From: a virus
IMG/VR virus record: IMGVR_UViG_3300032561_000141
Location: 1-22,691 of that record
Length of the DNA stretch: 22,691 bases
Strand: one strand, 5' to 3'
The notes beneath the pieces were generated by a model that saw only the letters and a list, made by a program, of their open reading frames with translations, made no database searches and was not told where the DNA came from. Each line of letters begins with the position of its first letter. Position 1 is the stretch's first letter. Positions 1,123 through 22,624 of this stretch are shown here, in pieces. Both the position numbers and the translations under genes were made by a program.

Positions 1123-1560
1123 CTATAGCCAATTGGGACAATTTGGCCATTGAATTTCAGAAGGAAATCCATTCTGTTGTGGCACATCTAAAAGAGCTTG
1201 TCTATATGCGGCCAATTCCGTTTGTTGTTGTTGATTTAAACTGGCATACCATACAGGATTAACACGATCTATAGTCTGTTGCAACAATTGATTTCTTGTA
1301 TTTCTCGCTGTGGATTCTGTAAAATCTGCTACCAATAACCAGGTCTTAGTAGAATAATCAAAATTATAAAGTTTGTTTTCGTTGCTGGGATTATCTTCTT
1401 TGGCTATTGCTTGACCAGCTTCTATGTAATATCGATCTGATAGATATTCGCCTTCGATATATGATTTATTTCGTAGGTTTAGTTCAGCGATATAATCATC
1501 ACTGAAGTTTAATATAGATTCAATCTGGCCAGTAGAAGGATTATATACAGTATATTTCAT
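1123..1560 (-). CDS. Putative tail fibre assembly chaperone-like protein
   Basis: A 145-aa protein. The last 60 residues (from about RNQLLQQTIDRVNPVWYASL through AYRQALLDVPQ to the final WPNCPNWL) have the pattern of phage tail-assembly-chaperone domains: an R-x-x-LL start, 'W....L...Q...L..YRQAL.D.P.Q.GFP..I.WP' and a tryptophan-proline ending. That family usually sits beside fibre genes and helps fold or attach them. The N-terminal half (MKYTVYNPSTGQIES) resembles the beta-rich leader often found in these proteins. Its ATG overlaps the stop of the preceding hexapeptide-repeat fibre gene by four bases (ATGA), so the two are probably translationally coupled, which fits a fibre-chaperone pair. 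Family call is from pattern memory, not a search. Confidence 0.65.
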   Translation of the reverse strand: MKYTVYNPSTGQIESILNFSDDYIAELNLRNKSYIEGEYLSDRYYIEAGQAIAKEDNPSNENKLYNFDYSTKTWLLVADFTESTARNTRNQLLQQTIDRVNPVWYASLNQQQQTELAAYRQALLDVPQQNGFPSEIQWPNCPNWL

Positions 1561-3836: not shown

Positions 3837-3837
3837 A

Positions 3838-5505
3838 TTATCTGCTGTCCTGCGTAGCTGTGTATTGCCAACTAATACTATTGACCATCCAAGTGTCGGT
3901 CGAACTGGTATTAGATATCTCAATACTATTTACTCGATAGACGTTTTGATTGATCTGAGTCCAGGGATTCACAGTATTGATTGGTATGGTCACAGCAGGC
4001 AAGAATGTGGCAGCAGCACCAACACTATCCGCACCACCTATGGTTATGGTTATATTACCAACTGATGTAGTGGGAACACCAGCTGAATCCAAATTATTGA
4101 CTTCAGGTAAGATACGATGAACCAATAGCTGTTGGCTATAGTTAGGCAATAGATGTAGATTATCTCTGCGGAACTGTGTTGATATAGGTTGATTACCTAT
4201 AAAGGTTGTGCCTTTATCTTTTTGCACCAAAGGCACTGTCCCAGTTGCACTGCTATAGACCACAGTTCTTGAAGCGTCATTGTGTGTCCAAGTATTACCT
4301 ACAAAGCTAAAGATAGGACTTTCTACTGCCATTGATGCAGTAGTGACCTGTCGAGGAGGATTAAATGCATCCAAATCATAACGATAGGCCAACATCTGAT
4401 TACAATATCCTGTGGAATTTAAATCAGGATAATAGATTTCAAATTGATTTTTACTGGTATTGTTAATTACAAATACACGATTGGTATAAGCAGGATTTAA
4501 GTTTTCATAAAAGTAATTCTTTACACGTTGATTGCCTAAACTTTTAAAATTACTACCATCAAATGACCAGATATCTCTGGCATCTAAACCATATACTGTA
4601 TTGTCTGCATTGGCCCAGCAGTTGTTGTTTAATAGTCCACGTCCTACGTTGAATAGGCTAACACCAATAACCGGAGCAGATGTAGATTGATAATTGATAG
4701 GACTAAAAATTACTGTGTCCCAATAGCTGCAAAGGAAAAAGTTATTGCCGCAGGGAAATCCATCTACTACAGGACCACGAACAGGAATTTCTAATTGGTT
4801 AGCAATGTTAGTAATAGTAGGTGCCCAGGTGGTAGGTCCAGAATTAAGACCAAAGGCCTGACTCCATTGCACAGTGGTAGGATGTGTTTCAATGATACCA
4901 GACGCAGCTTGAACTGCTGTTAAATTACCGGCTATTAAAATTGATCCCACATTGGGTGTTGCCCATAATCTTACAAAACCTGCTGTTAAACTGGACCAAG
5001 CAGGATTATAATTCCAAACATAAGTGTTGGGATCAGGAGGAGTTGGATTATTACTATATTGAATAAACTGTGTTCCAGTGGCTGTAAGATACATAGGAGG
5101 ATTTAAGCTGTCGTTTATAAACAACACAGTTCCATTCCAAGAATCTGTAATTTTAGTTCCAGCCACATATGATCCTAAACTTGCATTGGGATTAGATACA
5201 GGATCATAACCCGGAGTAAGATTAGTAGCAACACCTACTGCATCAATTCCAAACCATTGTCCTTGACTGTTAGCAGCTATAAACCAATATACACCATTGT
5301 CGCGATATCCTGCTGTGAGATAGACCACTGTGCCAGGTATGTTGCCCAAGATGTATTGGTCACCTAATACCGATCTGATACCGCGAATATCTGTTTCTAC
5401 ATTATATCCAGCATTGTATTCATTGGGTCCTAATGCACTACTGGGCACATCAGGAGTAAATGACATTTTGGTAAAAGGTGTTTTTACTTCTGTAAATGTT
5501 GCCAC
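3838..5505 (-). CDS. Tail hub/nozzle-like structural protein (DNA stabilisation type)
   Basis: A 555-aa protein starting at GTG 5505, seven bases after GAGGA, with the preceding stop at 5510; no ATG gives a better start. The N-terminus (TPDVPSSALGPNEYNAGYNV ... GIRSVLGD) has the layout of podovirus nozzle or DNA-stabilising proteins: a proline-rich opening, a statement of genome-wide 'nodes', then repeated beta-strand blocks with aromatic-rich loops (YRDNGVYWFIAANSQGQWFG, NNFFLCSYWDTVIFSPI, VYGLDARDIWSFDGSNF). This suggests a beta-propeller-like fold closing the tail after DNA packaging. No signal peptide or membrane segment is seen. It lies between fibre-type genes downstream of the adaptor. 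The specific assignment rests on overall pattern; a general 'virion structural protein' is certain enough, the nozzle role is inference. Confidence 0.6.
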   Translation of the reverse strand: MATFTEVKTPFTKMSFTPDVPSSALGPNEYNAGYNVETDIRGIRSVLGDQYILGNIPGTVVYLTAGYRDNGVYWFIAANSQGQWFGIDAVGVATNLTPGYDPVSNPNASLGSYVAGTKITDSWNGTVLFINDSLNPPMYLTATGTQFIQYSNNPTPPDPNTYVWNYNPAWSSLTAGFVRLWATPNVGSILIAGNLTAVQAASGIIETHPTTVQWSQAFGLNSGPTTWAPTITNIANQLEIPVRGPVVDGFPCGNNFFLCSYWDTVIFSPINYQSTSAPVIGVSLFNVGRGLLNNNCWANADNTVYGLDARDIWSFDGSNFKSLGNQRVKNYFYENLNPAYTNRVFVINNTSKNQFEIYYPDLNSTGYCNQMLAYRYDLDAFNPPRQVTTASMAVESPIFSFVGNTWTHNDASRTVVYSSATGTVPLVQKDKGTTFIGNQPISTQFRRDNLHLLPNYSQQLLVHRILPEVNNLDSAGVPTTSVGNITITIGGADSVGAAATFLPAVTIPINTVNPWTQINQNVYRVNSIEISNTSSTDTWMVNSISWQYTATQDSR

Positions 5506-5509
5506 GTTA

Positions 5510-5860
5510 TTATCCTCGAATTCCTATTACCCAATTGTTTTCTGTATCGCTCCAGACATAGATCTGTCCATCTGTTGGATATGGAACTGGAGCTTCCCAT
5601 AGCCCTGTGTCTGTGTTTAATTGCCAACTGCTGTGCTGACGTGGTGGAATAAAAGCGTCTAAATCTGGATCATAACTAAAACCTATGCCAGCAAAGTTTT
5701 TACGCAAGGGAGTTCCTCCCAATAGATGAACACCACCACGAGTGTTATAACTGGTCTGAATCCAACGACCAGGACCAGGTGGCAGACTATCAATATGTTC
5801 TTGTTCTGCTGGTATAACTTTTTCTACTCGATTATCTTTTACATATGCAAAATGTGTCAT
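5510..5860 (-). CDS. Conserved cyanophage-type small protein, fibre-associated
   Basis: A 116-aa protein (MTHFAYVKDNRVEKVIPAEQ). The segments WIQTSYNTRGGVH, GGTPLRKNFAGIGFSYDPD, DAFIPPRQ, SW and APVPYP form a pattern I recognise from small proteins widespread in T4-like marine cyanophages and pelagic phages, usually next to tail fibre genes. Its function is unknown. The opening 'HFAYV..NRVEKVI.AEQ' resembles the N-terminal half of such proteins, and the end (YVWSDTENNWV) repeats a tryptophan-centred strand. AGGAATAGACA precedes the ATG and overlaps the stop of the upstream glycine-rich gene; five bases separate its own stop from the next GTG start. A role in fibre assembly or as a short fibre component is inferred from position only. 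Confidence 0.75.
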   Translation of the reverse strand: MTHFAYVKDNRVEKVIPAEQEHIDSLPPGPGRWIQTSYNTRGGVHLLGGTPLRKNFAGIGFSYDPDLDAFIPPRQHSSWQLNTDTGLWEAPVPYPTDGQIYVWSDTENNWVIGIRG

Positions 5861-7155: not shown

Positions 7156-10100
7156 TTACATTCCTGCTAATAAGAAAGGATTAAATGTTGCATCTGCCGA
7201 AGCAGTTGAGGTAATTGTCACTCGGTTGTTTGGTGCGTCTGTGGTAATAGTTATGTTAGTTCCTGCTACCAAGGTTAAAGTTCCGGAAGTATTTCCAGAG
7301 GCCACTGTGGTCTGTCCAGATACTGCTACATTACCAAATGCATTAATACCTGTTAAATTGCTACCAATACCTAATATGTTGCCACCTGAGATATTGCCTG
7401 CACTGGTGATATTACCTGTGGCACTGACTGTTCCACCAGTGGCAATATTACCACCTGTGATATTACCACCTGCACTAACAATAGTTCCGGCTTTGATACC
7501 TGCACCTGCTAAAACTGCTACTGTTGTGATTAAATTACCACCAGAGATATTGCCTGCACTGGTGATATTACCTGTGGCCGAAATTAATCCACCAGTTAAT
7601 AGGTTAGCACCTGTGATATTACCGCCTGCACTGACAGTTCCGCCTGTGGCCAAGTTGCCACCTGTGATAGTTCCTGTGCCGCTTACTGTGCCGCCTGTGG
7701 CCAAGTTGCCACCTGTCACTGTGCCAGTAGCACTAATAGAAGAAGCAGTTAAGGCACCTGCATAAGTTGGCAAATACGCAGCTACGTTGCTGTTGCCATA
7801 ACTTGATACAATGCCAGTTAGCAATGATCCATTACCAATATAATAATTGCCAGAGATGTTGCCTGCTGCTGTTATATTGCCAGTTGAACTTAACAATAGA
7901 CCCTGCACAGTGCCAGGAGTAGTTATGCTATTACTTGCATAAACTTGATAAGTGGCAGATACATTACTACCGTTGATATTATTGGCACCGCTGATATTAC
8001 CGTTGTTATTAAGGTTTATATTACCATTGGTAGAGATATTGCCAATAGCAGAGATAGTTCCGCCACTGGCTAAATTACCACCTGTTATGGTGCCAGTCCC
8101 ACTGATTGTTCCTGAGGCAGCGACATTACCTGTTGTAACAGTCCCAGTGACACTGGCGTTGGTTGCATAAGCAGTAGCCCAATAATTGGTTGCACCACCT
8201 AAATTATATACAGCATTGGCAGAGGGTGTAACAGCAATATTGCTCTGCCAAGAAACTGTTTGATTATCATAATACCAAGTGGCAATCGGCACACCTGATA
8301 CATTACCTGCTGCAATACCAGCATTTTGTAATGCTGTTCCAGTTGATACGTTGTTAGCAACTAAGATAGTTTTATCATTGGTCACTATTACGTTAGAGTT
8401 AATTGTAGTTGTTGTGCCATTGACAGTAAGGTTGCCTGTGATGACCTGATCACCATAGACAGTCACAGTTGAACTGACAATTTCTGGTGCATATACGTTG
8501 CCAGAAACAGTTAAATTGCCACCTGTGATATTGCCAGCAGCAGCAATGTTGCCTGCGGCACTGATATTTTTGCTGCTGTTAATATTACCTACAGCAGTGA
8601 CATAACCACCTGTTAGGACATTACCGCCTGTGACATTACCCGTGGCACTGATATTACCACCTGACACAGTGCCGGTAGTAGATATAGGATTACCATCAAA
8701 GCTGGCCAATAGTGTAACCACGTTGGCATTGCCATACATTCCAGTTAGTTGGCTACCATTACCGGAAATATATGCACCTGTTATGTTACCACCAGCAGAG
8801 ATATTACCTATTGCATTGACATAACCCGACGATTGAACATTACCTGCAATAACATTACCTGTTACACTGATATAACCGGATCCGGCATTACCTGCTGTAA
8901 CTGTTAAAATGTTAGAATTGATATAGTTTAATGTAGCAGAATTACCTGTGAGATTAGCACCTGTGATATTACCTGTTGCACTAATATATCCAGAATTGAC
9001 ATTGTTGATACTGTAAACAGTGATACCGGCTGCATTAACAGTGACCTGTTCGTTTAATGCAGTATTGTTGGCAATAAGGTTTTGTGTGGTGATGATATTA
9101 CCATTGCCGTTTATATTGCTATTGGTATTTAAATTACCTGTAATCGATTCAAATCCATTGACAGTTAAATTATTTCCTGTCAGATTGCCACCTGCATAGA
9201 TATCACGTTCTGCACGTATGTTAGATGTAATTTCTAAATTACCACCTGTGATATTACCAGCAAGACTGATATATCCGCCCAATGATACAGTAAATGCATA
9301 ACCTACATTAAGGTTGGATAAAGTATTGATATTACCTGCTTGAATATTACCTGTATAAGTTGGCAAGTAAGCAGCTACGTTGGCATTGCCATAACTTGAG
9401 GCAACACCTGTTAAGAAAGCACCATTACCTAAAATATAAGCACCAGTAATGTTTCCGCTGGCACTAATGGTATTGGGATTTAAATTACCTGTATAAGTTG
9501 GCAAGTAAGCAGCTACGTTGGCATTGCCATAACTTGTTGTAATGCCAGTCAATTGGCTACCATTACCTAAAATATAAGCACCAGTAATGTTGCCTGCTGC
9601 ACTGATAGATCCTGTATCAACTAAATTACCACCACGTATATTGCCAGTGACAGATAAATTACCACCCGATAAATTACCTGTATATGTAGGCAAATAAGCA
9701 GCTACGTTGGCATTGCCATAGCTTGAGGCAACACCTGTTAAGAAAACACCATTACCTAAGATATAAGCACCAGTGACATTACCTGTGGCACTGACAGCAT
9801 CAGAACTGTATACTTCTGAGACCTGGACCCTATAGGCACTGACAGTGGATGCGGAAACTAAGCCGCCTGGTGCAAATAAATTCTGTGCAGTGACATTACC
9901 TGTTGCACTGACTATATTGGGATTTAAATTACCTGTATATGTAGGCAAATAAGCGGCTACGTTGGCATTGCCATAGGTAGAACTGGAACCTCCAATAAAA
10001 GGAGCACCGTTGGCGTAAAAGTAATTGTTAGTAAAGATACCACTCAGTCCGTTGCCGACATTACCAATGTTTCCAGTGTAAGTGGGAAGGAATGCCGCTA

Positions 10101-10197
10101 CGTTGGCATTACCATATGGTTGTTGGACTGGTATAATAACATTACCTGAACTTCCGTATAGGCCAATGTTATTGTTTGGTAATATTGAATCGGTCAT
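7156..10197 (-). CDS. Giant GN-repeat tail fibre protein
   Basis: A 1013-aa protein composed almost wholly of short repeats. A block YGNANVAAYLPTYTGN occurs seven times (five near-identical, two diverged), separated by long runs of ISATGNITGGNL-type strands, giving a beta-solenoid-like fibre shaft. Near residues 545-660 lies a different module (VITGNLTVNGTTTTINSN ... TNDKTILVANN ... AVYNLGGATNYWATAYA) of the kind found in fibres of marine T4-like phages and other long fibres. The C-terminal 60 residues (TLTLVAGTNITITTDAP...FNPFLLAGM) resemble a capping beta segment. AGGAAAACTTT precedes the ATG. Function as a tail fibre or spike is inferred from repeats and position; no catalytic motif, collagen Gly-X-Y array or chaperone domain is seen. 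Confidence 0.8.
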   Translation of the reverse strand: MTDSILPNNNIGLYGSSGNVIIPVQQPYGNANVAAFLPTYTGNIGNVGNGLSGIFTNNYFYANGAPFIGGSSSTYGNANVAAYLPTYTGNLNPNIVSATGNVTAQNLFAPGGLVSASTVSAYRVQVSEVYSSDAVSATGNVTGAYILGNGVFLTGVASSYGNANVAAYLPTYTGNLSGGNLSVTGNIRGGNLVDTGSISAAGNITGAYILGNGSQLTGITTSYGNANVAAYLPTYTGNLNPNTISASGNITGAYILGNGAFLTGVASSYGNANVAAYLPTYTGNIQAGNINTLSNLNVGYAFTVSLGGYISLAGNITGGNLEITSNIRAERDIYAGGNLTGNNLTVNGFESITGNLNTNSNINGNGNIITTQNLIANNTALNEQVTVNAAGITVYSINNVNSGYISATGNITGANLTGNSATLNYINSNILTVTAGNAGSGYISVTGNVIAGNVQSSGYVNAIGNISAGGNITGAYISGNGSQLTGMYGNANVVTLLASFDGNPISTTGTVSGGNISATGNVTGGNVLTGGYVTAVGNINSSKNISAAGNIAAAGNITGGNLTVSGNVYAPEIVSSTVTVYGDQVITGNLTVNGTTTTINSNVIVTNDKTILVANNVSTGTALQNAGIAAGNVSGVPIATWYYDNQTVSWQSNIAVTPSANAVYNLGGATNYWATAYATNASVTGTVTTGNVAASGTISGTGTITGGNLASGGTISAIGNISTNGNINLNNNGNISGANNINGSNVSATYQVYASNSITTPGTVQGLLLSSTGNITAAGNISGNYYIGNGSLLTGIVSSYGNSNVAAYLPTYAGALTASSISATGTVTGGNLATGGTVSGTGTITGGNLATGGTVSAGGNITGANLLTGGLISATGNITSAGNISGGNLITTVAVLAGAGIKAGTIVSAGGNITGGNIATGGTVSATGNITSAGNISGGNILGIGSNLTGINAFGNVAVSGQTTVASGNTSGTLTLVAGTNITITTDAPNNRVTITSTASADATFNPFLLAGM
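9346..9780 (-). repeat. Direct repeats in the GN fibre gene (138-bp period, 53-bp identical stretch)
   Basis: Bases 9346-9398 and 9484-9536 are identical over 53 bases, and 9421-9453 matches 9559-9591 over 33 bases. Both pairs are offset by 138 bases, showing a 46-codon tandem duplication. A further diverged copy starts near 9673, with its own match to the 'AYILGNG' segment near 9748. All offsets are multiples of three. Confidence 0.9.
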
Positions 10198-10964: not shown

Positions 10965-11546
10965 TTAAATTCCTTTAAAGAATCTCTGTTCGCCTACTTT
11001 ACGTGGATAAGGAACATCGATTGGTATAGGCAACCGTCCGCCTGGGTAACAAACATACTGAGGATACTCTTGTTGCACTACACGATAAAATTGTGCTTTT
11101 AATGTGCGATCGTGTTTGATAACCTGCCAAGGCATACCACCAAAATATTGATCACTGATACGAATAGCAACCACATCTGGCAAGTCCATCCATTTGTATC
11201 CTAACTTACCATCAGGCATAAGTGGTGCAAGAGGATCAGGAACACCAGCTTCGGCTAATCGGCGATATTCTGCACATTTTTGTGCAATATAATCGGTGTT
11301 CATTTGTTCGCGACGAATATAAAACTTACCATCTTCGCGTCCTGTTGTAGTAAGAATGTTTTTATTACCATTCCAACCTGCACGTTGCCAATCGCCTTTC
11401 ATTTCTTTATATAGACGATCATTTTTTAGTAGTCGATCTGCTACACCATTATGGTTAGTGACCATACCACCTGCATCTTGTCGCAGGAAATTGTAATCTA
11501 TATTGAGATCACCATCCAGGTGTTCGGGTTTGTTATTATCGCTCAT
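10965..11546 (-). CDS. Unrecognised 193-aa virion-region protein
   Basis: I do not recognise it with confidence. The start is ATG 11546 (MSDNNKPEHLDGDLNID); an upstream in-frame TTG at 11567 lacks a ribosome site and would overlap the promoter motif. No Shine-Dalgarno sequence precedes ATG; instead CTAAATAA lies four bases upstream. The protein is soluble, without signal or membrane segments. It has a basic-aromatic stretch (RLYKEMKGDWQRAGWNGNKN), a middle with repeated aromatic-proline turns (PDPLAPLMPDGKLGYKWMDLP) and an end with PYPRKVGEQRFFKGI. Placement between capsid and adaptor genes, behind a terminator, suggests a head or head-completion role. Confidence 0.65.
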   Translation of the reverse strand: MSDNNKPEHLDGDLNIDYNFLRQDAGGMVTNHNGVADRLLKNDRLYKEMKGDWQRAGWNGNKNILTTTGREDGKFYIRREQMNTDYIAQKCAEYRRLAEAGVPDPLAPLMPDGKLGYKWMDLPDVVAIRISDQYFGGMPWQVIKHDRTLKAQFYRVVQQEYPQYVCYPGGRLPIPIDVPYPRKVGEQRFFKGI

Positions 11547-11550
11547 AAGT

Positions 11551-11558
11551 TTATTTAG
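11551..11558 (-). promoter_or_regulatory. CTAAATAA late-promoter-like motif upstream of 10965-11546
   Basis: The minus strand reads CTAAATAA at 11558 down to 11551. It follows the capsid terminator by about 33 bases and sits 4 nt before ATG 11546. The core TAAATA is shared with the T4 late box TATAAATA. Promoter function is inferred. Confidence 0.55.
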
Positions 11559-11587: not shown

Positions 11588-11613
11588 TAACAAAAGCCCC
11601 GACGGGGCTTTTG
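11588..11613 (-). terminator. Intrinsic terminator after the major capsid gene
   Basis: Arms 11591-11600 and 11604-11613 are perfectly complementary over 10 bp (CAAAAGCCCC / GGGGCTTTTG) with a 3-base loop. On the minus strand the stem ends in TTTTG and is followed by TTATTTG, giving a U-rich tail. The stem begins 28 bases beyond the capsid stop (11641). Its A/T-rich flanks could also make it act in the plus direction, but no plus-strand gene needs it. Confidence 0.85.
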
Positions 11614-11640
11614 TATTGAACAACACTAATATTTTTACAA

Positions 11641-12804
11641 TTAGTAGGTATTCGCAGCACGTTGAACAAATGCACTTGGACGTGCAGTTGTAGGTGTGTT
11701 GCTGCCGTTGGCCACAGCGATCTGGTTTAGAACACCAACACCAGCTGGGTTACGAACGATCAAGGTTCCTTCCATAATGAACTGATCTAAACTTGCGTCA
11801 GCGTTCGAGAACACTTCGTTGTTTGGACCAAGATCACGCAAGGCACCCCATTGTAGCACTTCTTCGTTCAGGAAGTAAATGCTGTTGCTCATACCAGACT
11901 GATCCATAATCCACGAATCAAAGATTTCGTATGTATAGTTGAAGTCGCCTTCATAAGTCTGGATTGTATCACCACGTTCAACGTTACGACGGTTGATCGA
12001 AGTGTTACTTGTGCCAATCAAATCACTGATGCTGGTGCGTAGTGAAGTTGGAGCAACCATAGTGCGGATTTTAGCGTTATAACGCTGTTCAGCTACAGTC
12101 ACTAACTGTTTGTAAGTGATTGGGCTGAATGCCTGGTTAGCTGCATCGCTAATTGTATAGAAGTTTGAACCGTTTGCACCGATAACCAAATTACCAACAT
12201 TGCTTGAAGCACTGTCAGTTGTTTCGTTGTTAGTCCAAGTTGTTACGTTAGAGATATTACCTGATGCACTGTTAAATGATTGTGTGCCGGCAAAAGCTGC
12301 TAACGAACCCATACGACGACCAGTTTGTCCTGATGGTAGGCCCGAAGCTGAACCGTTTTGACCACCGTATTTTGTTCCGATTTGATCATTACGAACCAAT
12401 TGTTGTTCAACGTCGAACATCAATTCGATCAACTGCTTGACTTCTTGGTAAGCCTGTGGATCACCACCCGACTGCATAACTGCACGGGCTGTTCCAGAAG
12501 CAGCAACTACTGTGCTGAAAATCTGGGTATAGTTACCCAAGTTGTAACGCTGGTTGTTTTCTGCTTGAGCAGTAGAAACAGTAGCACCTTCAACTTGTGC
12601 TTGAACTGCAGGCAAGCGATAGATATCGTCTGTCCACAATGGTAAAGTTGAATTAACTTTACGCTTTTTAGTCATAGCCATATTAAGAACTGGGGTATCG
12701 TCTTTAACACGGTTAGATACATCTAAGTCTAAGTCTTTGACAACGATGTCAGCACCGTATGCTGTTGTTCCGTTACCAATCGAACTTGTTGTGATTTCTG
12801 CCAT
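11641..12804 (-). CDS. Major capsid protein (SU10/phiEco32-like, DUF5309 type)
   Basis: A 387-aa protein. The N-terminal pattern AEITTSSIGNGTTAYGADIVVKDLDLDVS...DDTPVLNMA...KKRK, followed by a WTDDIYRLPAVQAQVEGAT segment, IFSTVVAASGTARAVMQSGG, and the C-terminal QFIMEGTLIVRNPAGVGVLNQIAV, fits the HK97-fold major capsid protein family of SU10 and phiEco32-type podoviruses (DUF5309). HK97 fold is known for that family, not visible here. A strong AAGGAG precedes the ATG by eight bases and an exact TATAAATA box lies 36 bases before it. Codons here include more C-ending and CGT-type forms than in neighbouring fibre genes, as expected for a highly expressed virion protein. A strong terminator follows. 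The scaffold-like gene immediately upstream supports the call. Confidence 0.85.
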   Translation of the reverse strand: MAEITTSSIGNGTTAYGADIVVKDLDLDVSNRVKDDTPVLNMAMTKKRKVNSTLPLWTDDIYRLPAVQAQVEGATVSTAQAENNQRYNLGNYTQIFSTVVAASGTARAVMQSGGDPQAYQEVKQLIELMFDVEQQLVRNDQIGTKYGGQNGSASGLPSGQTGRRMGSLAAFAGTQSFNSASGNISNVTTWTNNETTDSASSNVGNLVIGANGSNFYTISDAANQAFSPITYKQLVTVAEQRYNAKIRTMVAPTSLRTSISDLIGTSNTSINRRNVERGDTIQTYEGDFNYTYEIFDSWIMDQSGMSNSIYFLNEEVLQWGALRDLGPNNEVFSNADASLDQFIMEGTLIVRNPAGVGVLNQIAVANGSNTPTTARPSAFVQRAANTY

Positions 12805-12835: not shown

Positions 12836-12851
12836 GTTTATATTTATAAAC
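12836..12851 (-). promoter_or_regulatory. TATAAATA late promoter within an inverted repeat, upstream of major capsid gene
   Basis: The minus strand carries TATAAATA at 12848 down to 12841, identical to the T4 late promoter box. It lies inside a perfect 7-2-7 inverted repeat (12836-12842 and 12845-12851), directly after the scaffold stop, and 36 nt before the capsid ATG. A start 5-7 nt downstream would leave a leader of about 30 nt with AAGGAG. Confidence 0.65.
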
Positions 12852-14042: not shown

Positions 14043-14398
14043 AAGACTTCCTCTGGGTTAGGTATGGGAGTTGTCTGCAACTTTACCACACGGTTTTTGT
14101 AATACACTGCACGTTGCAATGCGGCTACAAACTGGTCAATGCCGGTCAATTGATTGCTTAAGGCAATCCTGCGGCTATTGTCGTCACTTGAGTGTCCCTG
14201 AATACCACTCAACTGATCTAATATATCAAACTTAACTGCGTGTATGTAATAGGCCAAATCGCGATTCTTTAACAGTGCTTCAGCTTGGCTACCCTGGGTC
14301 TTAACCTGGTCCTGCTGTGCTACAGTTAAATCTTTTATACTGTTAGGATTAAGAGTAATCCTGTTATTAAACGCATCTATGGCTTCACGACTGATCAT
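14039..14398 (-). CDS. Unrecognised 119-aa protein between portal and scaffold
   Basis: I do not recognise the family. The sequence (MISREAIDAFNNRITLNPNS...) is mostly helical and Gln-rich, with segments DLAYYIHAVKFDILDQLSG and LTGIDQFVAALQRAVYYKNR, and a proline-rich tail TTPIPNPEEVL. No signal or membrane segments. The ATG shares one base with the portal stop (TAATG), and its stop overlaps the scaffold start by four bases, so it is locked into the portal-scaffold-capsid unit. A head-assembly role, for instance as a scaffold partner, is inferred from position only. Confidence 0.7.
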   Translation of the reverse strand: MISREAIDAFNNRITLNPNSIKDLTVAQQDQVKTQGSQAEALLKNRDLAYYIHAVKFDILDQLSGIQGHSSDDNSRRIALSNQLTGIDQFVAALQRAVYYKNRVVKLQTTPIPNPEEVL

Positions 14399-16668
14399 TA
14401 CTTGGCTATTCCTGCTGCACTATGTCCGGCAGCTACATTCATATACTCTAACTGACTCTGTGCAGTTTGACCTGTCATTGAGGCAGTGATTTCTTCTGCT
14501 CGGGCACTATCCAATCGAGCCTTGGCAATTTGACTTTGCTCTTGTGGAGTAGGCTGTTTATTCTTTGCTGCTGCCTGTCCCTGTTGAATCATTTTTACAA
14601 CTTCATCATCGGTGGGCAAATAAGTATTGGAATCTTTTACACCTAACACATATAATGTATCTGCATAAGGCTTTTTAATTTTACGATACATTTCTGGAGT
14701 TAAAGTTCCTGCTACAACCATAGCTTCTACTGTTTGATAAAGCTGTGTTTGGCATTGTGTAATTATGCGTTGTCTTTGAATACGATTTTCTTCCGACATC
14801 ATTCCTAAAGCCAAGTCAATGTGCATTAGTTTACGTTCACAGAAATTCATATCATCCCAGGCTTGATAGTCTAAGAACACAGGTTTGCGATCTGGATGGA
14901 ACATACTGGCCAATTTTTTAACACCATAGTCATCACCGTATTGAATCAAAGTTCTCCAGACTAACCAAATGGCTTCTTTTAATCCATCGGCTGCATTACG
15001 AACAGCATTGTCTTGTATGATCTGATTAGGACCTAAAGCCATTGCTAATTTTTCACCGGAATTACCTGCTGCCATAACTTCAGGATTGAATACATCCTGT
15101 GGTTGTGTCATACCAATAATGGCCATTGTATCCTGTTGAATACGATTCATAGCCAAGTCCATAAAACCTAAATTACCTGCTGGAGGTGGCACTGGATAAA
15201 CGTCTGTCTGTGGATCAAACTTTTCATCTAAGATAAAAATAGCAGCTTCGCCATCTTGTAGCATTTCAAAATCTACTTTGTCAGGTTTAACACCTAAACG
15301 TGGAGTAGCTGTCAGTAGTCCTAACTGTATTTCTGCACGGTGTCCTGCTGTGGCATATTCCTGCATAGGCACAACAGATTCTGCAATGCTCATACCAAAG
15401 AAGTTGCCAGGCAATGGTTTAGGACACATATTGGCCACAGGAATAAATTCTACTTCCTTAGCTGAAATAATGTATTGACCAGAGAAAACAATTTCTACTA
15501 ATTCTAATTCACCATCGCCGTCTATATCATAACGATCCCATACTGTTAAGATTGTGATCTGACGACTGTCTGGGTCCGCACCAACTCCGGATTCTACTGG
15601 TATGCCCATTACTGGCACACTATCACGAGCGTGGATAGCCAAATTGTTTAAGACCGAGCCGGCTTGATACGCACCATTTTGATTATACTCTGCGTGTTCC
15701 CGGAATTCCTCCATATGGTCTTGCAATTGTGGATACATTTGCACAGCTTCCTGTATGGACATTGGGTCATAGAAACCACAGAATGCCTGATCCTTCATTT
15801 GTTGAACAGTAGGATCACAGATCCAGTAATGTTGTGCAATATTGCGGAACTTGATATTCAAACTGTAGCCAGTTAGTTTATATCGGGCTGTGTAAATGGT
15901 ATTGCGATTGATAGCATCACGTAGCATATCCTCGCCCGATTCTAATTCAATGTTGGGAGTTTCTGACTGATCTGGATGTTGGCCTGCATCTAATGCATCA
16001 ATGCGACTTTGTAATTCTGCAGATCTCTGTTGTTCAGGTAGATTCTGCATAAATTGTTGTGTTTCTTTAAGAACCTGTTCCATATCAACTGATTTTTTAC
16101 GACGATTTTGACGTAGATAAGTTAAACCTGATTCTTCTGCCTGTTGTTCAAATGCACGTAATTGATCTAAGGTGCCTTGTGTTTCTACATAACGCACAAT
16201 AGTATCACGCTGTGGTAAAACCATTAGCATACCATTCTTGTGCAGCACAGCATCCATAATCCAACGTTGTAATATAAAATGTGGATCATTTTCCTCATTT
16301 AAAACACGGCTGACCATATTGGTAGCTTGATGTGCTGCTACAGAATCATCATCAGTGTCGGCTACAAATTCAAAATTGATTTCACCGTCTGGAGCAAGGC
16401 CTTTAGCAATAACCGCAGTGACATAATCTACACTGGGTTTAACCACAGGATGAATATAGTCAATGCCATTTACAGGTGCGGTAGAATCTGTTACTGCCAA
16501 ACATAGATAATGATAATCGCTGGCACGATTTACTGCGTTTTTAGTGCCCAGGTAGCGTAGGTAGCTGGCACACTTAGTATCCAATTGGCCTTTTAGTTTG
16601 ACGAAACGTGCCAACTGTGGATTGTTGGTATTCAGTTGCATCAAAACGGAGTTTTTAATGTTTAGCAT
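14398..16668 (-). CDS. Portal protein
   Basis: A 756-aa protein. The segments HPVVKPSVDYVTAVIAKGLA, HQATNMVSRVLNEENDPHFI, WIMDAVLHKNGMLMVLPQ (clip/wing-like helices and strands), a tail helix-rich region (EYATAGHRAEIQLGLLTATP...IFILDEKFDP) and a C-terminal alpha-helical, Gln-rich arm (GQAAAKNKQPTPQEQSQIAK) fit the large portal proteins of P22- and phiEco32-type podoviruses, which form the dodecameric DNA-entry ring. Length is typical for that group. It sits directly after TerL and a 40-aa protein, as expected. AAGGA lies upstream of ATG and a CTAAATAA motif 21 bases before it. No protease or fusion domain is seen. Confidence 0.85.
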   Translation of the reverse strand: MLNIKNSVLMQLNTNNPQLARFVKLKGQLDTKCASYLRYLGTKNAVNRASDYHYLCLAVTDSTAPVNGIDYIHPVVKPSVDYVTAVIAKGLAPDGEINFEFVADTDDDSVAAHQATNMVSRVLNEENDPHFILQRWIMDAVLHKNGMLMVLPQRDTIVRYVETQGTLDQLRAFEQQAEESGLTYLRQNRRKKSVDMEQVLKETQQFMQNLPEQQRSAELQSRIDALDAGQHPDQSETPNIELESGEDMLRDAINRNTIYTARYKLTGYSLNIKFRNIAQHYWICDPTVQQMKDQAFCGFYDPMSIQEAVQMYPQLQDHMEEFREHAEYNQNGAYQAGSVLNNLAIHARDSVPVMGIPVESGVGADPDSRQITILTVWDRYDIDGDGELELVEIVFSGQYIISAKEVEFIPVANMCPKPLPGNFFGMSIAESVVPMQEYATAGHRAEIQLGLLTATPRLGVKPDKVDFEMLQDGEAAIFILDEKFDPQTDVYPVPPPAGNLGFMDLAMNRIQQDTMAIIGMTQPQDVFNPEVMAAGNSGEKLAMALGPNQIIQDNAVRNAADGLKEAIWLVWRTLIQYGDDYGVKKLASMFHPDRKPVFLDYQAWDDMNFCERKLMHIDLALGMMSEENRIQRQRIITQCQTQLYQTVEAMVVAGTLTPEMYRKIKKPYADTLYVLGVKDSNTYLPTDDEVVKMIQQGQAAAKNKQPTPQEQSQIAKARLDSARAEEITASMTGQTAQSQLEYMNVAAGHSAAGIAK

Positions 16669-16689: not shown

Positions 16690-16697
16690 TTATTTAG
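16690..16697 (-). promoter_or_regulatory. CTAAATAA late-promoter-like motif upstream of portal
   Basis: CTAAATAA at 16697-16690 on the minus strand, 21 nt before the portal ATG. It contains the TAA stop of the preceding 40-aa gene. A start 5-7 nt downstream would leave a short leader with AAGGA. Promoter activity is inferred from the TAAATA core shared with four other sites. Confidence 0.5.
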
Positions 16698-16816: not shown

Positions 16817-18424
16817 TTATCCTGGATTAAATGTTTTCTTCCACTCGGAATGTGGTTGACGAGGTGCTACATAACGATCACGCTGTGCCAACATACGCTG
16901 TCTGCGTGTGCGGTTGTCCCAAGGTTCTGCTATGCCCTGTAAACAGGCCAATAGGGCATAACGTGCAGAATCTATACAGTCATCAGGATCACTAAAACGA
17001 CCCTGTTCATCTACATAATAGTTCTGTGCTTCACGTAGAAAATCCACACAGTTTTCATTGACCATTAAAGTAGAAAATTCCAACATCTGACGCATTTGGT
17101 TTATGCCATAACTTTTATGATTGGTCACACGACCTTGACTGTCGGGAGGATTCATTATGGCCTTTTCATATACATTAAGTTCATAGTTTTCAAACAGTTC
17201 TCTTATGCTGGTTGAACTCATTGTATAACGACCCGGTGTAGAAGCATCTGATGGTAATACTATAGGTGTGCCAAATACTTCGGGTCTTAATAAATGGTTG
17301 ATATACTGTGTAGGCACAGCTTCTTCAATGCCCTGCACACAGATCTGGCGATGTAGATAAGCTCGGCTTTCATAAGGATCCCAATACATTAATGTGATCA
17401 CAGTTCTATCATTTACTAAACCCAAGTCTAATGCAATAACACGCTGTATGTTAGGCATTTCTTTAAAGTTATAATCTGCTGTGCGATATAAAGGCCATTC
17501 AGCCAATTGGAATACAGCACCTTTACCCATTACAGGCTTACCTGCAATACGTGCTTCACGTTCGTGTGGCAAGTAGTCACGTTCTAATTGTCTGCGTGTT
17601 TCCATCAATAGGAAAGGTTCGCCCCAGGGATCATATTCTGGCACATCGGACCAGGCCACACGTATAAAGTCATATCCGGATTCTCGATTCCAAAACTTAC
17701 TGACCAAGCCATTGAGGCCTTTAAGCGGTGTAAAACTACACATAACAATACCTTGTGTAGTTGCAGTTCGTGTTACTATTTCACTAAAGAAATCATCTGG
17801 TGGTTGTTCATCAAACACAGCCAAGTTTAATTTAAAACCCTGCATCTGTCGAACTTCTTGTGTATAGTTGGCAAACAGCAGATAACTTTTCTGACCCGAT
17901 GTGTGACGTATTTCTACACCCATACAGTTGGCACCATCATTACGCATAGTTTCAGTTATGATAGCCGACTTAGGAATAGCACCTGTGCCTAATTGTTCTG
18001 TTATCTTGACATCCTGTGTGCCTAACAATTCATTTTGTAAAACCATTGCTACCTGGCTCCAGCCTTCGCCAGCTACCATTGCTGTAATAGGATGATTGAA
18101 TTTGTGTCCAGTCCACCAGTCTGGATACAGACCTGTTAAATGCATAGCAGTTTCATAACAGGTAGAAACTGTTTTACCAATTCGGTTAGCAGCAAGAATA
18201 CCTCGTCGCATACTGTTTTTGGTATCGAAAAATTGTCGTTGATGTTCAAATGGTCTGAAATAGCGTAATTGATTATAGACCATATCCTCAGATACAGCAA
18301 TGGCTAATTCTCTGAAACGATCCTGTGTTTCGTGATCTAACATAGCAAGACTTTCAGGTTTAAGATCGTGTTGATCACATACCCAAGTAACAGCACGACG
18401 CATAAGAACATTAGGATCTATCAT
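16817..18424 (-). CDS. terL: Terminase large subunit
   Basis: A 535-aa packaging motor protein. The ATPase domain carries the Walker A AANRIGKT (about residues 78-85) and Walker B LAVFDEQP (acidic pair at about 205-206), and a coupling-type segment MCSFTPLKGLNG. The nuclease half begins with VIALDLGLVNDRT (first catalytic Asp at the 'ALD' position) and ends in DDCIDSARYA, where DD...D supplies a late acidic residue. This is the normal terL architecture: ATP-driven DNA translocation followed by headful or site cutting, acting at the portal vertex. Length is typical. AGGA lies upstream of ATG. TerL sits directly before the 40-aa protein and portal, and downstream of the methyltransferase remnant. 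The NRxGKT form resembles the P22/Sf6 and C3-podovirus groups. Confidence 0.95.
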   Translation of the reverse strand: MIDPNVLMRRAVTWVCDQHDLKPESLAMLDHETQDRFRELAIAVSEDMVYNQLRYFRPFEHQRQFFDTKNSMRRGILAANRIGKTVSTCYETAMHLTGLYPDWWTGHKFNHPITAMVAGEGWSQVAMVLQNELLGTQDVKITEQLGTGAIPKSAIITETMRNDGANCMGVEIRHTSGQKSYLLFANYTQEVRQMQGFKLNLAVFDEQPPDDFFSEIVTRTATTQGIVMCSFTPLKGLNGLVSKFWNRESGYDFIRVAWSDVPEYDPWGEPFLLMETRRQLERDYLPHEREARIAGKPVMGKGAVFQLAEWPLYRTADYNFKEMPNIQRVIALDLGLVNDRTVITLMYWDPYESRAYLHRQICVQGIEEAVPTQYINHLLRPEVFGTPIVLPSDASTPGRYTMSSTSIRELFENYELNVYEKAIMNPPDSQGRVTNHKSYGINQMRQMLEFSTLMVNENCVDFLREAQNYYVDEQGRFSDPDDCIDSARYALLACLQGIAEPWDNRTRRQRMLAQRDRYVAPRQPHSEWKKTFNPG

Positions 18425-18969: not shown

Positions 18970-19499
18970 AAAGTAGCCAATCGAGCATCAATATGATCCC
19001 AATCCATTAGTGACCAAATGCGATCAAAATATTCTTTTTTACGCCATTGATAATCTGGATTCCAAGCGTGTTCCCACCAGTCAATTAAAAGCACTATGTC
19101 ATCGCGAATCTCGTGATTATGTATAGTTTTGATTTGACCTGTTCGACTCAGATAAATCCAACCTGATCCTTCTATCTTTATAGCTTCTTCTAACATTTCT
19201 TCTTTTAACACAGATAATCGACGATAAGGTTCTATTAAGGCCTTAAACACCGGTCCGGGCTGTGTAGTATTAGCGGCAGGCGGTGTAAATTGACTGTAAT
19301 AGATAGCGTGTAGGAAAGCACCTGCTTCATTGAAGCTACGATCGCCTTCATTTTTATTAAAACGATCTACATAACCACCATACAAGTGTTGGAAATGATA
19401 GATCATATTTTCTTTGCTTAACACAGGTTCTAAAGCATCTAATGCATATGGTAAACGAATCTGTTCTAATTTTCGATTGGTTGATTTGGGAAACTTCAT
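18966..19499 (-). CDS. Fe/Mn superoxide dismutase homologue
   Basis: A 177-aa protein. The start is ATG 19499 (MKFPKSTNR), overlapping the previous stop by four bases; an earlier TTG has no ribosome site. The sequence LPYALDALEPVLSKENMIYH aligns with the SOD N-terminus (LPYAxDALxPxIS..T..YH), NEAGAFLHAIYY with NNAAQVWNHTFYW, GSGWIYL with GSGWTWL, and IDWWEHAWNPDY with VDVWEHAYYIDY. All four metal ligands are present: H35, H64, D140, H144. Y43 (gateway Tyr34) and W114 are kept. The second-shell histidine or glutamine is replaced by a His at 129 (NHE), suggesting a His-type SOD; the His30 gate is Leu. The 25-residue hairpin between helices 1 and 2 is reduced. It would dismutate superoxide in the infected cell. 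The ATGA overlap links it to the upstream unknown gene. Confidence 0.85.
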   Translation of the reverse strand: MKFPKSTNRKLEQIRLPYALDALEPVLSKENMIYHFQHLYGGYVDRFNKNEGDRSFNEAGAFLHAIYYSQFTPPAANTTQPGPVFKALIEPYRRLSVLKEEMLEEAIKIEGSGWIYLSRTGQIKTIHNHEIRDDIVLLIDWWEHAWNPDYQWRKKEYFDRIWSLMDWDHIDARLATL

Positions 19500-20278
19500 T
19501 CTGGATCTACATCCCAAGGATTCTTTAAGCTGCCGCCTTCAATTTCTGCGAATTCACGATCAATCCAAACTTCCCAAGCTGAACTGTTATTCACACGAAA
19601 CTTCTGCATTATGCCACGCAGATTACGACCCATTGGAGTCAGTGTGCCATCACGTCGAACCATTATCTGTTCGCCTGTGCGTGGATCTATCCACTTGATA
19701 TATTCAGGACGTGTTCTACCATACTTGTCGATCTTTTCACCTACAGGCACAGTGTCCAGGGGTCCTATCACTTCATAACTGACCATACCATTCTTATACT
19801 TGCGGAAGATACAGCCAACTTTTTTATCTTGAGCACGGAAGTCATCATTGGGATGCGGAATAAAAGGACTGTAGAATGAGTTCTGTAATTGATCCATACT
19901 GGGCAATCCAGGATCTCTTGCAGGCACAGGTTTAAGATCCTCTTGTGGAATCATTTCTGTGCGATCTACATAAGGGTTTTCTGAACCTAAGAACTTGGGA
20001 TCTATATCCAGACCATTTAACACATCCATAGCCACTTGATATTTCAAACGATTAGCACGACCTTTTAGATTCAATACTATACCTGTTTCATCATAGACAA
20101 AACGTTCTAATTCTTTGGCAGTGGGAAAGTCTGTCATCAGACCTTCAATGTCAAATTGAACTGTTTCCACGTGAGGTTGAAGTTTCGCTACAGATTTTTT
20201 TGCCACTGTAACAGAGTCTGGTTCGACTGCAGAGACATCTTCTGTCCAGGGATTGTTTGATGTTGTTTCTTTTTTCAT
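19496..20278 (-). CDS. Unrecognised 260-aa protein
   Basis: I do not recognise a family. The first 35 residues are disordered (MKKETTSNNPWTEDVSAVEP). The middle has a helical stretch (GLMTDFPTAKELERFVYDET), a positively charged helix (KGRANRLKYQVAMDVLNGLD), then acidic, proline-rich linkers (NPYVDRTEMIPQEDLKPVP). The last 110 residues look folded: CIFRKYKNGMVSYEVIGPLD, KYGRTRPEYIKWIDPRTGEQ, MVRRDGTLTPMGRNLRGIMQ, WEVWIDREFAEIEGG. AAAGGAATAGAA gives a good ribosome site and the upstream gap (70 bases) holds a hairpin. The stop overlaps the SOD start by four bases. It probably belongs to the late, packaging or head region by position. Confidence 0.65.
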   Translation of the reverse strand: MKKETTSNNPWTEDVSAVEPDSVTVAKKSVAKLQPHVETVQFDIEGLMTDFPTAKELERFVYDETGIVLNLKGRANRLKYQVAMDVLNGLDIDPKFLGSENPYVDRTEMIPQEDLKPVPARDPGLPSMDQLQNSFYSPFIPHPNDDFRAQDKKVGCIFRKYKNGMVSYEVIGPLDTVPVGEKIDKYGRTRPEYIKWIDPRTGEQIMVRRDGTLTPMGRNLRGIMQKFRVNNSSAWEVWIDREFAEIEGGSLKNPWDVDPE

Positions 20279-21682: not shown

Positions 21683-21940
21683 TTAGTATTTTCCTTTGCA
21701 CATTTTTACAGCAGGATGATGATCTTCGTGTGTCTTACGTTCTCCGTGTCCGGCACGTAATGTTTGATTCTCTGGTCCACGATAGAAGCCAGGATGAACT
21801 TCACGTTCTTTTGCTGCTACTTCACGAGGTTCACGTAGTTCTGCAACTTCGCGATCACGTTGTTTTTGAGTGTCACGCAGGTCGGGTCTTTCTTCAGATT
21901 CACCTGCACGACTCTGACGGGTTTCTTTCATTTTACTCAT
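21683..21940 (-). CDS. Highly charged 85-aa protein ending in a HPAVKM motif
   Basis: Starts MSKMKETRQSRAGESEERPD, overlapping the previous gene by 8 bases (ATGAGTAA), with AAGGAAAG upstream. Nearly half the residues are R, K, E or D (RDTQKQRDREVAELREPREV), so a disordered or coiled-coil nature is likely. The end DHHPAVKMCKGKY matches DFHPAVRMSRMS near the end of the protein at 21933-22202. I do not recognise a family. Confidence 0.65.
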   Translation of the reverse strand: MSKMKETRQSRAGESEERPDLRDTQKQRDREVAELREPREVAAKEREVHPGFYRGPENQTLRAGHGERKTHEDHHPAVKMCKGKY

Positions 21941-22202
21941 CGTTGTAACTTTCCTTACTCATACGACTCATACGAACAGCGGGATGAAAGTCCGGCTTCT
22001 GACCTGAACTAACTGATTGTTCATAGGCACTGCCAAGTTCTTCAATGTGACTGCTGTGATGTGGAACAGATTTTTTAGCCTCAGCTGTGTGTCGTTCGCT
22101 ATAGGCAATGGCCACTGCTTGTTTTTGTGGTCGTCCAGCTGCCATTTCGGTCCGAACATTTTCACCAAAGGCTTTAGGGCTGGTAGATTTAATTAGAGGC
22201 AT
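21933..22202 (-). CDS. Small phage protein with RPQKQAVAIAYS motif
   Basis: An 89-aa protein (MPLIKSTSPKAFGENVRTEM...). The segment FGENVRTEMAAGRPQKQAVAIAYSERHTAE matches a motif I have seen in small conserved phage and phage-like proteins (A-x-G-[KR]-[PS]-x-[KR]QA[VI]A[IL]A), where it is thought to form a basic helix; the family function is unknown. The C-terminal DFHPAVRM is shared with the next gene. AAGGACAACGAG precedes the ATG, and a CTAAATAA motif 20 bases before it gives a short leader. It is the first gene after the terminase-small-like gene. Confidence 0.65.
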   Translation of the reverse strand: MPLIKSTSPKAFGENVRTEMAAGRPQKQAVAIAYSERHTAEAKKSVPHHSSHIEELGSAYEQSVSSGQKPDFHPAVRMSRMSKESYNDE

Positions 22203-22222: not shown

Positions 22223-22230
22223 TTATTTAG
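22223..22230 (-). promoter_or_regulatory. CTAAATAA late-promoter-like motif upstream of 21933-22202
   Basis: CTAAATAA at 22230-22223; it includes the TAA stop of the terminase-small-like gene. It lies 20 nt before ATG 22202, with AAGGA in between. Inferred promoter, same core as the other sites. Confidence 0.5.
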
Positions 22231-22576
22231 TCGAACTATCACCAGTCAATCTGGCCACTGCTTCTATAAAGGCCTGTTGTTTAGCTTCTACTGTGTCAGC
22301 AGAATCTTTTACTTCAACTTGATTCAATGTTGCTGCCACTTTGTTTAATATGAGATTGTGATACTTGGCAGCTAATTGTCGATCCGTGTTACGTGCTTCA
22401 ATAAAGTCTTCGGCCAACAATTCTACATAAGGTCTGCCATTGGCACGTGTTTGAACTGCTTGTAACAGTCCTTCTATGGTCACACGATCCACTGTGCCTT
22501 TGGGTCTGCCGGCTCCGGGTCTTGCACCACCACGGCCTGGTCCTTTTTGTGCTGGAATTTTTTCTGAATCTTTCAT
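22223..22576 (-). CDS. Putative terminase small subunit-like DNA-binding protein
   Basis: A 117-aa protein. I place the start at ATG 22576 (MKDSEKIPAQKGPGRGGARP): an earlier in-frame start at 22663 would put the strong intrinsic terminator inside the gene. The segment GPGRGGARPGAGRPKGTVDR is characteristic of N-termini of small terminase and related phage DNA-binding proteins. The rest is helical (VTIEGLLQAVQTRANG, VELLAEDFIEARNTDRQLAA, VEAKQQAFIEAVARLTG). The small subunit recognises phage DNA and recruits TerL, though here TerL is about 4 kb downstream, so a different DNA-binding role is possible. No Shine-Dalgarno sequence; CTAAATAA sits four bases before ATG. The stop is in another CTAAATAA. 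Confidence 0.6.
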   Translation of the reverse strand: MKDSEKIPAQKGPGRGGARPGAGRPKGTVDRVTIEGLLQAVQTRANGRPYVELLAEDFIEARNTDRQLAAKYHNLILNKVAATLNQVEVKDSADTVEAKQQAFIEAVARLTGDSSTK

Positions 22577-22580
22577 ATAC

Positions 22581-22588
22581 TTATTTAG
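22581..22588 (-). promoter_or_regulatory. CTAAATAA late-promoter-like motif, 4 nt before ATG 22576
   Basis: CTAAATAA at 22588-22581, right after the T-tract of the terminator, and 4 nt before the ATG of the terminase-small-like gene. If transcription began 5-7 nt downstream, as in T4 late promoters, the mRNA would start at or next to the ATG. Inference from one sequence. Confidence 0.55.
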
Positions 22589-22593
22589 TATCG

Positions 22594-22624
22594 AGAAAAA
22601 AAACCCACCTTTTTGGAGTGGGTT
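22594..22624 (-). terminator. Intrinsic terminator upstream of the terminase-small-like gene
   Basis: Arms 22602-22608 and 22618-22624 (AACCCAC/GTGGGTT on opposite sides) form 7 bp plus one or two more with a bulge, loop about 9 bases, followed on the minus strand by a run of eight T. It would end transcription from the gene to the right. Confidence 0.85.

Follow-up and report, generated by a model that had tools for sequence, protein, structure and literature searches.

A TAAATA-type box at two preferred distances from start codons in a clade of small uncultured phages: a putative late promoter with leaderless and Shine-Dalgarno-led layouts

The closest described systems are the T4-type late promoters, the gp36-type promoters of phage phiEco32, and leaderless phage mRNAs. 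The T4 late promoter (TATAAATA) is described as a single box of 8 bp that lies roughly one helical turn upstream of the transcription start, with no -35 element (PMC2988020). The box occupies positions -13 to -6 (PMC1524935), the start region is A/T-rich, and the promoter is read by gp55 together with gp33 and gp45. For phage Aeh1, the late promoter consensus is given as a/gCTAAATA (PMC2988020). The phiEco32 gp36-type promoter, tAATGTAtA, is also a single element, with transcription starting 6-8 bp downstream (PMC8948821). Leaderless phage mRNAs, among them lambda cI (PMC9031893) and giant-phage transcripts, are already in print, and one report describes phage transcripts as often leaderless (PMC5312081).

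In this work, a comparative genomics approach was applied to a box of the form [AG][CA]TAAATA in a phage contig and its relatives. As in the published descriptions of T4-type late promoters, this is a single 8-bp A/T box, here with a TAAATA core, in an A/T-rich start region and with no -35 element, and its placement matches the T4 late register if transcription starts where the anatomy of the sites suggests. The C form of the box has the same letters as the published Aeh1 consensus. With phiEco32, as described (PMC8948821), the clade shares a podovirus-like character and a one-element promoter-like site directly upstream of the presumed start point; however, the box is different, and phiEco32 encodes a recognisable sigma factor, whereas none was found in this clade. 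The sites differ from other leaderless phage mRNAs in that one box serves both leaderless and Shine-Dalgarno (SD)-led genes by spacing alone, and in that box use is conserved gene by gene across the clade. A literature search, mostly on titles and abstract openings, returned no description of this layout.

Box sites and gene layout in the window

The window, a 22,691-base IMG/VR phage contig analysed as a whole, has its main genes on the minus strand. The relevant genes and sites are the following:

22602..22624, minus strand: intrinsic-terminator-like hairpin and T run upstream of the 22576 gene (-10.3 kcal/mol, z -1.74)
22581..22588, minus strand: promoter-like box CTAAATAA, followed by GTAT and the ATG at 22576-22574; the core CTAAATA lies 5 nt before the ATG
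22223..22576, minus strand: 22576 gene, leaderless layout, 117 aa, with the GGARPGAGRPKG motif
22223..22230, minus strand: box CTAAATAA, overlapping the stop codon of the preceding gene, 20 nt before the SD-led 22202 gene
21933..22202, minus strand: 22202 gene, 89 aa, SD-led (AAGGA) in the window, in the leaderless layout in many relatives
16817-18424, minus strand: terminase large subunit (phrog_2)
16690..16697, minus strand: box CTAAATAA, overlapping a stop codon, upstream of the SD-led portal gene
14398..16668, minus strand: portal protein gene, leadered class (phrog_1216, E 6.4e-25)
12841..12848, minus strand: TATAAATA upstream of the SD-led major capsid gene, a doubtful promoter
11641-12804, minus strand: major head protein (major capsid gene), SD-led (phrog_1328)
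11590..11614, minus strand: intrinsic terminator in the interval between the capsid gene and the 11546 gene (-17 kcal/mol, z -5.19)
11551..11558, minus strand: promoter-like box CTAAATAA, followed by ACTT and the ATG at 11546-11544
10965..11546, minus strand: 11546 gene, leaderless layout, 193 aa, between the capsid and tail genes

The product of the 22576 gene, which we take to be small-terminase-like from its GGARPGAGRPKG motif and position, had no Pfam match. The predicted fold of the 193 aa protein of the 11546 gene (mean pLDDT 73.9) gave no convincing structural match. Elsewhere in the window, 7156-10197 and 1557-3923 encode very long proteins rich in repeats of the GNITGGNL and TIGNNLTVG types, which are probably tail fibres, and positions 1-330 encode a low-complexity tail rich in S, T and D.

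The first-pass annotation had described one layout at both 22576 and 11546, namely CTAAATAA, 4 nt and an ATG, with a terminator upstream and no SD sequence, and its coordinates check out. It had also argued that the match of two sites made chance less likely. This stood for the strict pattern CTAAATAA-N4-ATG, found twice in the window against 0.03 expected, with two copies reached in 0 of 100 shuffles; however, the looser [AC]TAAATA-N5-ATG, also found twice (0.26 expected), reached two copies in 4 of 100 shuffles, and the case from the window by itself is therefore suggestive, not decisive. The two remaining copies of CTAAATAA, of four in total, overlap stop codons and are followed by an SD sequence and an ATG. 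The TATAAATA site before the capsid gene was weighed as a further promoter and discarded for lack of conservation: a box lies within 60 nt of the start in 1 of 20 capsid genes, and all 20 have an SD sequence.

Conservation of the short-spacing layout

Relatives of the 193 aa protein were found at 74 loci in a search of viral contigs, of which 71 remained once three C-terminal fragments were left out. These relatives were chosen by peptide patterns, so the upstream DNA had no influence on the choice. All 71 carry [AC]TAAATA 4-7 nt before the ATG, at 4 nt in 9 loci, 5 nt in 37, 6 nt in 22 and 7 nt in 3; the first box base is C in 60 and A in 11, and an SD-like word is present within 18 nt before the ATG in a single homologue. 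This conservation settles that the layout is real. The comparison of related genomes proposed in the first-pass annotation thus found the spacing conserved and the ribosome site missing there too, and the interpretation offered in it is supported. The wording "exactly 4 nt" holds for both window sites, but in the relatives it gives way to a conserved [AC]TAAATA core at 4-7 nt, for which 5 nt is the mode (37/71) and not a fixed distance.

After removal of near-identical upstream sequences, 52 loci of the 11546 gene were left, and the box is present in every one of them. A perfect hairpin with a T run was detected by a simple test in 49 of the 52, the other three having imperfect hairpins as judged by eye. 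Little information is found outside the box and the ATG except for the terminator T runs, and positions 13-20 before the ATG hold at most about 0.25 bit; the loci belong to one clade and are non-independent, though the sequence around the box is almost randomised. The N termini of 46 members of the family align at this ATG.

For the 22576 gene, 80 loci were collected, from which 17 weak or partial matches and then 6 loci at contig edges were left out, leaving 57. In 36 of these relatives the box lies 3-8 nt before an in-frame ATG, which for 31 is the ATG nearest the expected start (21 of the 31 at 5 nt). The remaining 21 are without the box layout, some having ATAAGTA at about the same place and others being distant. 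An SD-like word stands just upstream of the box at 6 of the 36 leaderless-type starts, where it would be usable only if transcripts began further upstream.

ATAAGTA replaces ATAAATA near the same place in L134, L148, L152, L157, L162 and L181. As a clade-wide variant box it was rejected on nine further genomes: some of them have ATAAGTA before the 22576-type gene, but the other genes read there keep TAAATA, and ATAAGTA is therefore a variant of this site. A conserved gene of 160-230 aa runs divergently from the 22576-type gene (e.g. in G005, G010 and G013-G016). In about half of the genomes it is preceded by (G)TTAAATA some 22 nt before AAAGG and an ATG, so that the first box base can be T. 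Its product looks acetyltransferase-like by eye only, with no match in Pfam.

Box spacing and Shine-Dalgarno words across the clade

The layout extends well beyond the window, to a large group of small phages that are all uncultured. The main set of relatives comprised 19 contigs of 30-38.5 kb, of which seven carry direct terminal repeats and are therefore probably complete. The coding strands of these contigs hold 197 copies of [AC]TAAATA and the opposite strands 48. The coding-strand total is not above that of shuffled sequences (mean 200.9), and it is only the placement that is unusual: the box followed by 5 nt and an ATG was counted 43 times on the coding strand, against a mean of 3.7 and a largest value of 7 in 20 shuffles. 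When 15 letter orders of the box were compared, the real order topped the list for an ATG 3-8 nt downstream, with 61 of 197 occurrences against 20 of 121 for the runner-up.

For open frames of at least 50 codons, the distance from the box to the first ATG is bimodal, with one cluster of values at 4-6 nt and another at about 18-27 nt; 35 of 152 fall at 5 nt, and the second cluster peaks at 20-22 nt. Coding-strand boxes with a recognised start divide into 61 in the leaderless setting and 66 otherwise, and the 70 of 197 that precede no recognised start imply that many boxes are chance occurrences or serve something else. The same logo, [AG][CA]TAAATA, is common to 55 leaderless and 63 leadered nonredundant sites, and in both classes the 40 nt upstream of the box show no strong conservation, with no conserved -35 or other upstream element.

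The setting was also counted by gene family. The 11546 gene is leaderless by layout in 18 of 20 cases and the 22576 gene in 14 of 18, whereas the portal gene is leadered in 17 of 20, with the box within 60 nt of the start, as is another conserved gene family, fam10, in 17 of 19. In the nine further genomes, which had been selected because the DNA upstream of their 22576-type genes varies (for G022 and G028, the first 20,000 bases only), the layout of the 11546 gene held in all 8 where the gene is present, and the portal gene was leadered in 9 of 9.

Spacing and ribosome site go together. Among 28 genomes, SD-like words turned up in 80 of the 100 intervals in which box and first ATG are 14-30 nt apart and in 0 of the 76 intervals of 8 nt or less, the chance of such a word in 18 random nt being 0.119. 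An SD sequence precedes 1 of 39 leaderless-layout starts versus 301 of 396 other conserved starts; the latter figure is inflated, since simple start-calling rules favour SD and so overstate its use in other genes. For several of the short-spacing starts, the simple caller picked another codon. Both layouts occur within the 22202 family, in which the SD sequence comes and goes with the spacing. Its starts were found by sequence pattern, and 19 have a box within 40 nt (members lacking a box, such as the one in G027, were not counted): 13 SD-less starts at 5 nt, three SD-less starts at 8 nt, and three SD-led starts at 19-21 nt, the window's species included.

In the T4-like genomes of T4, Aeh1, Syn9, S-PM2 and P-SSM2, the leaderless layout occurs 1-8 times each per 169-252 kb, near the 1-5 occurrences of a reversed-pattern control. 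Leaderless placement is therefore no general habit of T4-like phages, unlike in the clade studied here, where about half of the boxes with a recognised start are so placed. At the gene starts read in the outgroup MW202484, with identities of 50% for the terminase and 59% for the head protein, boxes are absent, and the system accordingly appears to be clade-specific.

A putative late promoter and its reader

From the anatomy of these sites we infer that the box acts as a promoter, with its start point, its lateness and the leaderless translation of the short-spacing genes following from the same reading. Very probably, [AG][CA]TAAATA is a putative single-element late promoter, giving a leaderless mRNA in the short layout and an SD-containing leader in the long one. 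The box would work without a -35 element, as T4 and Aeh1 late promoters do, and RNA synthesis would begin about 6 nt past its last A. A box about 21 nt from the ATG would then yield a short leader carrying the SD sequence. With a box about 5 nt from the ATG, the modal spacing, the published T4 register would make the A of AUG the first transcribed base (+1), and the mRNA would thus be leaderless and need a leaderless translation route. Upstream of the 11546 gene, the terminator would end transcription of the capsid gene, so that the leaderless promoter would restart expression of the next gene.

The nearest competing account retains the promoter and has transcription begin 1-4 nt before the ATG, so that the mRNAs would carry very short leaders and not be strictly leaderless. 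The spacings of 6-7 nt in 25 of the 71 loci of the 11546 gene and of 8 nt at three 22202-family starts agree with it, but the mode of 5 nt places +1 on the A of the ATG in the T4 register, and we consider this account rather unlikely; leaders of 1-4 nt cannot hold an SD sequence either, so the biology would be nearly the same.

A translational role would require the message to start upstream and read through the terminator, with the box serving as an A/U-rich unstructured stretch that aids 30S binding in the manner of S1-type sites. The region before these ATGs is indeed A/T-rich and has no SD sequence. Against such a role, the same box with the same logo lies about 21 nt before SD-led genes, a position hard to reconcile with a function at the ATG; what is conserved is a strict 7-base word, beyond mere A/T-richness; and at the 11546 gene the terminator precedes the box in 49 of the 52 nonredundant loci. 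Together these observations make a translation element improbable. Least probable is a box with no function, left by common descent and by stop-codon use, in which TAAATAA-like words arise from overlapping stops and A/T-rich gaps. Two of the four CTAAATAA copies in the window do include the stop codon of the preceding gene, and the total box count does not exceed that of shuffles. However, the box persists in 52 of 52 nonredundant loci in which positions 13-20 before the ATG hold about 0.25 bit or less, the 11546 site lies downstream of a terminator and does not serve as a stop codon, placement relative to the ATG is bimodal, and boxes on the coding strand outnumber those on the other strand (197 to 48).

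If the putative promoter is what it appears to be, it would represent clade-wide, gene-specific leaderless initiation in phage late genes that is readable from sequence alone, and the 22202 family, with members in both layouts, would be a built-in natural experiment. Annotators would also gain a rule for placing start codons where SD-based gene finders would go wrong, and the system raises the question of what factor recognises a T4-like box in phages that lack gp55.

The first-pass annotation had compared the sites with T4 late promoters; the likeness of box and register stands, but gp55, gp33 and gp45 were not found in these 30-38 kb phages, and "as at T4 late promoters" is therefore an analogy. 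Profiles for gp55 (phrog_234 and phrog_12791) and for gp33 and gp45 (phrog_254 and phrog_223) had no match at E<=1 in any of the 19 relatives; the T4 control was recovered in both searches. The sigma-70 region 2 profile (PF04542) also matched 0 of 19 at E<=1, with the phiEco32 control found at 6.5e-5. Searching 6518 six-frame stretches by phmmer with gp55, gp33 and phiEco32 gp36 gave nothing below E 0.43, the best value, obtained with gp36. An hhalign comparison of gp55 with 55 of 259 families, those of up to 450 aa present in more than one genome, which very divergent factors could escape, reached a best probability of 4.1 (control Moby, 99.7). A 260 aa family present in all 19 contigs (window 19496-20278) was considered as possibly sigma-like; its predicted fold (mean pLDDT 73.3) had no PDB match below E 0.5. 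In the host search, a capsid alignment against genome contigs gave 39 pattern matches, none of them a relative. Tentatively, these viruses may form a widespread podovirus-like clade of about 35 kb that uses T4/Aeh1-style late boxes without a gp55-type factor. The reader would then be a new phage transcription factor, an unsuspected host sigma factor or late proteins supplied by a T4-like phage in the same cell, and box-to-ATG spacing alone would set the mode of translation of each gene.

Several further features of these genomes were observed. In G012 (29772 and 31584), G013 (8034), G014 (33368) and G015 (13436), the box leads directly into a short hairpin-like stretch with no gene behind it; recurring in several genomes, these sites possibly give rise to a small RNA from the same promoter, and the five sources searched had no match in Rfam. 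A family of 353-415 aa proteins, found in 6 of 19 genomes (e.g. L080:3556-4707, on contig G001 of the window's species), has by eye the look of a miniature polymerase, with the motifs YDI..A.PTL, K..IN.L..GA and EHDG, and gave no Pfam, PDB or phage match. Some other genomes encode a Prim-Pol and a VapE-like helicase (L102:5579-6535 and 4210-5586). A ferritin/Dps-like protein (L080:2106-2537; PF00210, E 5.4e-16) is encoded in all 19 genomes, an unusual universal gene for a phage.
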